DNA of 64,000 nucleotides from an uncultured Alphaproteobacteria bacterium. GTDB lineage: Bacteria > Pseudomonadota > Alphaproteobacteria > Micropepsales > Micropepsaceae. The translations under genes were made by a program, and so were the position numbers. The stretch lies in assembly GCA_902826695.1 (NCBI GenBank), contig CADEFU010000002.1, forward strand, positions 124,001-188,000, in the 5' to 3' direction. Below are positions 21,780 to 26,304 of this stretch, piece by piece. The notes under the pieces were generated by a model that was not told the DNA's origin, searched no databases, and saw only the letters and a program-made list of their open reading frames with translations. How positions within the stretch are numbered: the stretch's first letter is position 1; every line of letters begins with the position of its first letter.

Positions 21780-22559
21780 ATGGTTCAGCTTTCGTTGCCG
21801 CAGAATAGCAAAGTTCGGCCGGGTAAGACCTGGCCCTCTTCCTCAACTGCGAAGCGGCCGAAAACGGTCAAGGTCTATCGCTGGAGCCCGGAAGATGGGG
21901 AAAACCCGCGGCTCGACACCTATGAGGTCGATCTCGATGCGTGTGGGCCGATGGTCTTGGACGCGCTGATCAAGATCAAGAATGAGATCGATCCGACGCT
22001 GACATTCCGCCGCTCGTGCCGCGAAGGCGTGTGCGGATCGTGCGCGATGAACATCGACGGGTCGAACACGCTGGCCTGCACGAAGGCGATCGACGACATC
22101 AAAGGTCCGATTGCGGTCTATCCGCTGCCGGCGATGCAAGTGATCAAAGACCTTGTGCCGGACATGACGCACTTCTATGCGCAGTACGCGTCGATCGAGC
22201 CGTGGCTCCAGACGAAGACGCCGACGCCGCAGAAGGAATGGAAGCAGTCGCCGGAAGACCGGGCGAAGCTCGACGGGCTTTACGAGTGCATTCTGTGCGC
22301 CTGCTGCTCGACGTCGTGCCCGAGCTATTGGTGGAATCAGGAGCGGTACTTGGGTCCCGCCATTTTGCTGCAATCGTATCGTTGGCTTGCCGACAGCCGT
22401 GACGAGGCGAAGGGCGAGCGGCTCGACAATCTTGAAGATCCGTTCCGGCTCTATCGCTGCCACACGATCATGAACTGCGCGTCGGCGTGTCCGAAGGGGT
22501 TGAACCCGGCGGAAGCGATCGGCGAGATCAAGCAGATGATGGTGAAGCGGTCGGTGTAG
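21780..22559 (+). CDS. sdhB: Succinate dehydrogenase iron-sulfur subunit
   Basis: 259 residues. The [2Fe-2S] cysteines are C80, C85, C88 and C100. The C-terminal ferredoxin part has [12 protein letters not shown] at 170-181, and the second cysteine set lies in [18 protein letters not shown], together supplying the [4Fe-4S] and [3Fe-4S] clusters. It transfers electrons from SdhA to the membrane quinone. It is unusual in being separated from sdhCDA by three genes (SDR, creD and the antisense M1 peptidase), so it must rely on its own promoter within the 140 nt before it. The stop overlaps the next gene's GTG by one base. Confidence 0.96.
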
Positions 22560-23692
22560 TGGCGGCCGCCCGCTACGAGATCGAGTATCGCGCGGCGCGG
22601 GCGCAGTTTGGTTTGCTGGCGCGCAAGGCCGGCGCTGTGGTCGAGCACTACGAGAATTCAGCCGCGCGCGGGCCCTATGGCGAGGCGCTGGTCACCGATG
22701 TCGCGTGGTTCGGGCCGAGAGATGCGCGGCGCGTGTTCTTGTGTTCATCGGGGATGCACGGGCTTGAGGGCTCGGCCGGGTCAGCGGCGCAGTGCGCGTG
22801 GATGGCGCGCGGGGTGACTCTGCCTGCGGGTGTTGCGGTCTGTTTGGTGCATGCGTTGAACGCGTGGGGCTTTGCCCATATTGCGCGCTGCACCGAGAAC
22901 AACGTCGATCTCAATCGCAACTTCATGGACTTCGGCAGGGCGCTGCCTGCCAATCCGCACTATCACCACATTCGCGATGTGATCCGGATGACGGATGTGG
23001 GGCCGCGCTCGATCGGCGAGTTGATGGCCAACCATCAGCGTTTGACGGCCGCGATTGGACCGGCGGCGCTCGCTTATGCGGTCAACGCGGGTCAGTACGC
23101 GGATGCGGAGGGTCTGGCCTATGGCGGGACCGGGCCTGAGTTCGGGCATTGGGTGGTGCGCGATCATGTGTTGCCGAAGCTTGCGCACGCGACGCATGCG
23201 GGGTTGATCGATTGGCATACGGGTGTCGGTGCCTATGGCGAGGTCGCGTTCCTGCCCACCCAGGGCGTGGGGACGGCGGCGTGGGATCGCGCTGCGGCGT
23301 GGTGGGGGCGCGAGCGCGTGGCGGGTTGGAAGCGTTCGTCGGTTGAAGCCGCGATCGAAGCCGATGAAGCTGAGAGCGGTTTGACTGTGCACAAAGATGG
23401 GCAGTTGCGGTTTGCGCTGGCGCGGATGCTGCCGCATGTGGAGGTCACGGGCGCGGTGATCGAGTTCGGCACGGAGAAGGAAGGCGACTTCGCGAAGCTT
23501 GCGCTGATGACGATGTATGAGCGCTGGCTGCGCTTCGTCGATCGCGGCGACCGGCATGCGCCGCAGCACAAGGCGCATCTCGAAACCGCGCTGTCGTGTT
23601 TCGCGCCGGACGACGCGCAATGGCGCGCGCTTGTACTCGGCGAAGGGCCGGTGCTGATCGATCGGGCGATCGCGGGACTCGCCGCTGCTTAG
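22559..23692 (+). CDS. DUF2817 M14-like zinc peptidase
   Basis: 377 residues from a GTG that shares one base with the sdhB TAG (TAGTG); a longer frame inside sdhB is rejected. The [12 protein letters not shown] block supplies the zinc His and Glu. [25 protein letters not shown] and [10 protein letters not shown] follow in the order seen in DUF2817/AstE-like M14 carboxypeptidases. There is no signal peptide. The substrate is unknown; coupling to sdhB may be positional only. It is convergent with bioB, with a 4-nt TTAG overlap. Confidence 0.83.
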
Positions 23693-25368: not shown

Positions 25369-26304
25369 ATGAAATTTTTGACACGACTGGCGGCGGCCTT
25401 CATCGCGGCATTGGTAGGGACAGGTGTTGCGCAGGCGGAGTATGCGCCGCCGGGCAGTTATCAACGGACTTGCAGCGACATCACGACGACGTGGAACGTG
25501 CTGTCGGCCACGTGCCGGACGCGCGACGGCAGCTGGAACTACACCACGCTGCGCAACTATCGCGATTGCGCGGGTGACATCGCGAACCGGAACGGTCGAC
25601 TTGAGTGCGCGTATCGCGATGACGATGATCGTCCGGATGACGACTACGGCGGCTGGCTGCCGCTAGGGAGCTATCGCAGTACCTGCCGCAACATCACGCG
25701 CGAAGGCGATACGCTGATGGCTGAGTGTCGCGACAACTATGGGCGTTGGCGGTACACGGAGCTTGCGGGCTATCGTTCGTGCCGGGACATCGTGAACGCA
25801 AACGGAATTTTGCAATGCCGACGCGATCACGATGATGGCGATTATCCGGACGACGACTATGACGGACGCTTGCCGGGCGGCAGTTGGCGCGAGACGTGTC
25901 AGCAGGGTCGCGTGCACGAGCAGGTGCTCCACGCGACCTGCCGCGACAACTTCGGCAGCTGGCGCCGGACGTCGCTCGACCTCCGATACTGCCGCGGTAA
26001 TGTTGCGAACGACAATGGGCGGCTTGTGTGTGGTCGTGGTGGCCCGGGCGGCTATGGGCGGATCACGATTTACCGGCATACGAACTATGCGGGCCGGTCG
26101 CGGACCTTCACGAGCGATATCGCCGATCTCAGCGGTTATGGGTTCAGCAATTTGACGTCGAGCGTTGTGGTTCAAGGCGGCGTCTGGCAGCTGTGCGACA
26201 AGCCGAACTATCGCGGGTACTGCATCATCCTCGATCGCTCGCAGGGTAATCTGTGGGCGTTCGGGTTCAACGACCGTACGGAATCTATTCGTCGCATACG
26301 GTAG
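25369..26304 (+). CDS. Secreted protein with three CVNH-type half-repeats and a beta/gamma-crystallin domain
   Basis: 311 residues from the ATG at 25369, 8 nt after GGGAG. The signal peptide is 1-23 (GVAQA-E). Three similar units of about 53 residues follow at 29-82, 99-152 and 170-222. Each begins GSY/W-x-x-T-C, continues with LxATCRxxxGSW or similar, and ends NGxLxC. Each has four cysteines (35/49/67/80; 106/120/138/150; 177/191/208/221). This matches the cyanovirin-N homology half-repeat. The first two units are each followed by an Asp-rich linker (84-95, 153-166). Residues 232-311 look like a beta/gamma-crystallin domain (ITIYRHTNYAGRSRTF...). A secreted glycan- and possibly calcium-binding role is inference. 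Confidence 0.75.
   Translation: MKFLTRLAAAFIAALVGTGVAQAEYAPPGSYQRTCSDITTTWNVLSATCRTRDGSWNYTTLRNYRDCAGDIANRNGRLECAYRDDDDRPDDDYGGWLPLGSYRSTCRNITREGDTLMAECRDNYGRWRYTELAGYRSCRDIVNANGILQCRRDHDDGDYPDDDYDGRLPGGSWRETCQQGRVHEQVLHATCRDNFGSWRRTSLDLRYCRGNVANDNGRLVCGRGGPGGYGRITIYRHTNYAGRSRTFTSDIADLSGYGFSNLTSSVVVQGGVWQLCDKPNYRGYCIILDRSQGNLWAFGFNDRTESIRRIR

Follow-up and report, generated by a model that had tools for sequence, protein, structure and literature searches.

Cyanovirin-N is both a model protein for domain swapping and a scaffold for antiviral lectins. Its sugar site A is formed by residues 1-38 together with residues 90-101 and its site B by residues 39-89 (PMC4926178), so that each sugar-binding domain comprises most of one half of the protein plus the C-terminal hairpin of the other half. 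For beta/gamma-crystallins that bind calcium, the consensus is a pair of N/D-N/D-x-x-S/T-S motifs (PMC3551895). A gene that joins these two families lies in the window (the whole 64,000-nucleotide stretch of alphaproteobacterial DNA that was analysed), and we read its CVNH units as self-closed beads that have been fused recurrently to a crystallin domain.

The gene occupies positions 25369-26304 of the forward strand, as do all features given here, and encodes 311 amino acids followed by a stop codon; the assignment draws on the open reading frame, Pfam and NCBIfam matches and orthologs. The product begins with a signal peptide (aa 1-23, 25369-25437; MKFLTRLAAAFIAALVGTGVAQA), read by eye from the translation rather than by a dedicated predictor, which ends in A-Q-A before E24, at the same position as in the loci L062 and L063. 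Three CVNH units, delimited by iterated HMM searches and by eye, carry four cysteines apiece: unit 1 (54 residues, aa 27-80, 25447-25608; Cys 35, 49, 67 and 80), which was also modelled alone with AF2, unit 2 (53 residues, aa 98-150, 25660-25818; Cys 106, 120, 138 and 150) and unit 3 (53 residues, aa 169-221, 25873-26031; Cys 177, 191, 208 and 221). They are separated by two fast-changing, Asp-rich linkers of 17 residues (aa 81-97, 25609-25659) and 18 residues (aa 151-168, 25819-25872). The chain closes with a beta/gamma-crystallin domain assigned by Pfam (aa 231-310, 26059-26298), whose calcium motifs, SNLTSS and NDRTES, read as degenerate. The layout given in the original prediction (signal peptide, three four-cysteine units, two Asp-rich linkers and a crystallin-like domain) is confirmed by the reading frame, HMM and Pfam results, and its claim of secretion is supported by the N-terminal signal peptide.

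Profile searches also bore out the proposed identity of both domain types. The Pfam CVNH model (PF08881) matches the protein at 2.2e-17, with 64.1 bits against a cut-off of 24.5, and every unit shows, for its first cysteine pair, the spacing of 14 that the first half of cyanovirin-N has in the profile alignment. The Crystall model (PF00030) is covered in full (positions 1-82 of 82) by aa 231-310, at 5.2e-16 and 59 versus 25 bits. A reading as peptidase inhibitor I36 (PF03995) was dropped at 20.1 bits, below the cut-off of 21.1. The NCBIfam mannose-binding lectin model NF052356 is matched in three stretches and passed marginally, with 82 bits against an equivalog cut-off of 80; this model is 103 positions, or two units, long, and on it two relatives with a single unit reach no more than 27-29 bits. 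Automatic annotation would call the 311-residue protein a CVNH protein or a mannose-binding lectin, which qualifies the earlier suggestion of an undescribed secreted lectin: the name is already given, whereas the literature searched, which covered few subscription papers, holds nothing on point about CVNH-crystallin fusions or lone CVNH repeats.

A survey of domain order in other genomes, suggested in the original prediction, found that the arrangement of three units plus crystallin recurs within the genus, in at least eight genomes with the window's included. Orthologs in seven other genomes of the genus match over nearly the whole length at 47-77% identity, and because they keep the same order the combination is not a chance one. 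In one more genome the variant L017 carries a long insert behind unit 1, and genome G006 lacks unit 3 only, having kept units 1 and 2 and the crystallin domain. A further protein of the genus (L165, on contig 118 of G009) has five units in the order unit-crystallin-unit-unit-unit-unit, set apart by long Pro-rich spacers. Compared across species, the units group mostly by their position in the chain, so the three-plus-one arrangement is old and stable within the genus. Comparison with the nearest ortholog gives a dN/dS of 0.13 for the whole protein and of 0.06 for the crystallin domain, its most conserved part; both values are rough, since dS is near or above saturation. The linkers change fastest.

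The setting is equally constant. At L062, L063 and in the window, the gene is flanked by a divergent L,D-transpeptidase gene on one side and a dienelactone-hydrolase gene on the other (neighbours recognised by domain search in the window and read from translations at the other two loci). Its place in the chromosome is fixed, its neighbours are ordinary and there is no hint of mobility, and it is the one CVNH gene found in its genome. Elsewhere in the window are a gcrA gene, in keeping with the class Alphaproteobacteria, and, at 22487-23692, a gene for a DUF2817 protein (1.9e-80) whose listed GTG start overlaps the 3' end of the iron-sulfur protein gene at 21780-22559; its real start may be further in.

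CVNH is uncommon in the class (9 of 385 genomes by the Pfam model, 12 of 289 by the unit profile), and its four-cysteine units come 1, 2, 3, 4, 5 or 12 to a protein among the relatives. The fetched loci gave 48 proteins with one unit, 21 with two, 20 with three, two with four and three with twelve, counts that include a few incomplete or redundant entries (such as the second frame of L035) and that, in a sample leaning to few genera, are not counts of independent events. Proteins with one unit are spread over several genera that belong to different families, and so are proteins with three. In other genera there are three-unit proteins that lack the crystallin domain (L014-L016, L104, L155 and L157), and many unit proteins carry none. 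Linker lengths vary widely, and acidic linkers are a feature of the window's genus that is replaced by Gly- or Pro-rich sequence in other genera. The twelve-unit proteins (L162, L163 and L164, from genomes G020, G015 and G023) are secreted-type open frames of more than 1100 residues with long Pro/Glu/Thr-rich repeat tails. Among plasmid and phage records only lone crystallin matches and one three-unit protein were found, the latter on plasmid p_3 of Rhizobium lusitanum 629 (L160:1968-2771; WP_183686486.1, "CVNH domain-containing protein"), with four cysteines in each unit, short linkers and no crystallin domain; in viral contigs, a search with the family alignment confirmed no match.

The original prediction had treated three half-repeats as an anomaly that called for dimerisation or for a repeat that folds alone. 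The first of these is not supported by relatives with 1, 2, 3, 4, 5 or 12 units: since the number varies so freely, the "unpaired half" probably needs no special explanation, and the variation suggests that each unit folds by itself.

Single units deserve attention in this regard. They are not fragments, for in the alphaproteobacterial family of genome G157, which is not the window's family, the unit is present in 107 of 199 genomes and is the sole match in 79 of those 107. A typical single-unit protein consists of a signal-like N-terminal segment, the unit, a Gly/Pro-rich linker and a crystallin domain; the open frames at L140-L142 (109-113 residues) hold little besides a secretion-type N-terminus and one unit. 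Other settings were noted: in L106-L109 (family f39) a single unit precedes about 100 conserved C-terminal residues with no Pfam name, and in L147-L149 one precedes repeated, probably helical segments. On single-unit proteins the Pfam CVNH model, itself two units long, gave 23.1, 21.7 and 14.9 bits, under the cut-off of 24.5, with one protein passing at 27.5. Among single-unit loci such as L140, L082 and L147, some proteins thus fall below the curated PF08881 cut-off, which may lead public annotation to underestimate their numbers and may be why single units have been little noted. When the class was searched with a two-cysteine half-unit profile, no lone two-cysteine halves were found, only four-cysteine proteins and one weak 26-position match containing stop codons. 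(The architecture table labels L124 and L158 as two-cysteine single units, each of which has a cysteine beyond the profile match; L116 is mixed.)

What distinguishes the four-cysteine unit is its hinge. The profile alignment shows three residues of the four-cysteine units to be missing from cyanovirin-N, exactly between the last strand of the sheet and the hairpin. Measured from the second cysteine to the hairpin asparagine, this hinge is 22-25 residues long in 166 of the 168 four-cysteine units scored, compared with 20 residues in cyanovirin-N and 18-19 in all eight two-cysteine units, which come from few proteins (L033, L052, L123 and L127, each with two units). That set omits units mislabelled as two-cysteine in the measurement, namely five four-cysteine units in which the pattern ended early (L104, L107-L109 and L128), and one L116 unit with 24 residues that was also labelled two-cysteine. 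The hinge is thus 3-5 residues longer in four-cysteine than in paired two-cysteine units, and the two extra cysteines flank the hairpin. In domain swapping, a longer and clamped hinge is expected to favour the closed monomer; by this general principle, the long clamped hinge probably makes a closed unit possible.

Structure prediction is in keeping with closure. Modelled alone from nine unit sequences, unit 1 reached a mean pLDDT of 93.2 and a pTM of 0.73, all five models exceeding 90, although closing could have been forced on a unit that was given nothing to exchange with. The model consists of a three-stranded sheet, a short helix and a hairpin. Foldseek aligned it to cyanovirin-N chains in an ungapped match with a TMq of about 0.60 and an rmsd of 9.5 Å, and it gave better fits when the alignment ran across both halves (106 columns and TMq 0.73 for LKAMG, 102 columns and TMq 0.71 for TbCVNH), the rmsd of these gapped matches being still 5.4-5.7 Å. 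The better fit of the two-half alignments is what would be seen if the hairpin were folded back on its own sheet. These alignment statistics, as distinct from coordinates, suggest that the sheet fits one cyanovirin half, with the hairpin in the place that the hairpin of the other half takes there. The unit is also matched by predicted structures of "cyanovirin-N domain" proteins from giant viruses (55-61 columns, 1.4-1.8 Å), so the same shape arises in predictions made elsewhere; the BFVD entries M1NMB1, A0A167RJ09 and A0A6N1NUT9 (moumouvirus, Powai lake megavirus and tupanvirus) contain it. The full-length model, built from three sequences, is of low confidence (pLDDT 58.7; about 64-90 in most unit blocks and about 29-45 in the crystallin part) and is not intertwined. 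Compared with the PDB, it matched cyanovirins locally and superposed on none (TMt at most 0.37), though partner units were present. Together the single-unit relatives, the single-unit model and its Foldseek fit lend support to the "repeat that folds alone" of the original prediction.

In the mechanism proposed here, the C-terminal beta-hairpin of each unit would pack on that unit's own three-stranded sheet, with no exchange with a neighbour. Closure would be enabled, probably, by the 3-5 additional hinge residues, and a putative additional disulfide, which in unit 1 would be Cys67-Cys80 next to the canonical Cys35-Cys49, would clamp the hinge. We are inclined, somewhat hesitantly, to regard the four-cysteine unit as a natural, unswapped, single-chain cyanovirin domain of about 54 residues with a complete sugar site, and cyanovirin-N-type lectins as its two-copy version, swapped within the molecule, in which the hinge is shorter and the hairpin disulfide absent, whichever way evolution ran. 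Under one alternative, two neighbouring units (1 and 2, or 2 and 3) would intertwine as a classical CVNH domain and the unit left over would pair with its counterpart in another chain, so that the dimer would contain three CVNH domains. Every solved CVNH lectin found is indeed a two-half protein, cyanovirin-N makes swapped dimers (PMC4926178), and halves can pair across a long insertion, as in MoCVNH-LysM, which keeps its CVNH domain around the inserted LysM (PMC4392113). Such pairing is nevertheless unlikely, given the relatives with one and five units, the G006 protein that has lost no unit but the third, the longer four-cysteine hinge and models that are not intertwined, the full-length one with low confidence.

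If each unit is closed, it would join its sheet to the N-x-N-G hairpin loop and so make one cyanovirin sugar site per unit, and the protein would be up to trivalent, its sites spaced by flexible linkers. The N-x-[ND]-G loop, which belongs to the sugar site in cyanovirin-N, is kept in most units, and its asparagine is invariant in all three units across the genus alignment. Of the mannose (Man-alpha-1,2-Man) binding that marks CVNH lectins, this conserved asparagine is the one sign in the sequence, and the units are putative sugar binders. Calcium binding is more doubtful. Each of the two crystallin motifs misses the consensus by one position, a pattern common to the genus; in most single-unit relatives, by contrast, both motifs are complete (e.g., NDQISS and NDRISS). 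This weakens the idea that the crystallin domain binds calcium. The same role for the acidic linkers is weakened by their Gly- or Pro-rich replacements in other genera, and it was dropped, since no DxDxDG-type motif was seen by eye and the composition is not conserved across genera.

An improbable alternative is that the units are no longer lectins and serve as a disulfide-rich spacer presenting the crystallin domain, for instance as a protein of the envelope or matrix or as a protease inhibitor. The argument for sugar binding comes from sequence, conservation relative to the nearest ortholog is strongest in the crystallin domain (dN/dS 0.06), and there is weak similarity to Inhibitor_I36; the I36 score, however, is under its cut-off, the sugar-site asparagine does not vary in any of the three units across the genus, and crystallin is absent from many unit proteins. 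A ring exchange of hairpins (1 to 2, 2 to 3 and 3 to 1) as a closed three-fold cyanovirin swap is very improbable: three-unit proteins do recur across several genera and their units cluster by position, but the same type of unit occurs in other numbers, models well in isolation and is joined by linkers of greatly varying length.

The protein with self-closed units is therefore best described as, quite probably, a secreted multivalent lectin-type protein in which three such CVNH units are followed by a crystallin module. The C-terminal domain would be compact and probably calcium-independent, and may stabilise, pair or anchor the chain; outside the cell, the whole might bind a polysaccharide of its own cell or of a neighbour. 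Natural one-unit versions, if they are what they seem, would reveal what the swap does, offer a sugar-binding module reduced to about 54 residues and allow hinge length to be tested as the determinant of swapping within a single natural family. That CVNH and crystallin are linked recurrently is also a lead to the role of bacterial crystallins.

With the cyanovirin-N/CVNH lectins (PF08881; PDB 3EZM, 2JZK, 2KJL, 2Y1S and 5K79) the 311-residue protein shares the profile, the spacing of the first disulfide and the N-x-D/N-G hairpin loop. Those lectins consist of two halves that swap a hairpin over a short hinge, whereas the family described here comes in any number of units, with 3-5 additional residues in the hinge, a second cysteine pair flanking the hairpin and a fold predicted to be self-closed. 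MoCVNH-LysM of Magnaporthe oryzae (a type III CVNH protein; PDB 2L9Y) likewise combines CVNH with another domain and has a long insertion between halves, but there the insertion is enclosed by a single CVNH domain made from two repeats (PMC4392113), in contrast to three units with a crystallin domain at the C-terminus. Like the microbial beta/gamma-crystallins clostrillin, vibrillin and protein S, the 311-residue protein is bacterial and matches the entire crystallin profile; it differs from them in that both calcium motifs are one position off and the domain is fused to CVNH.
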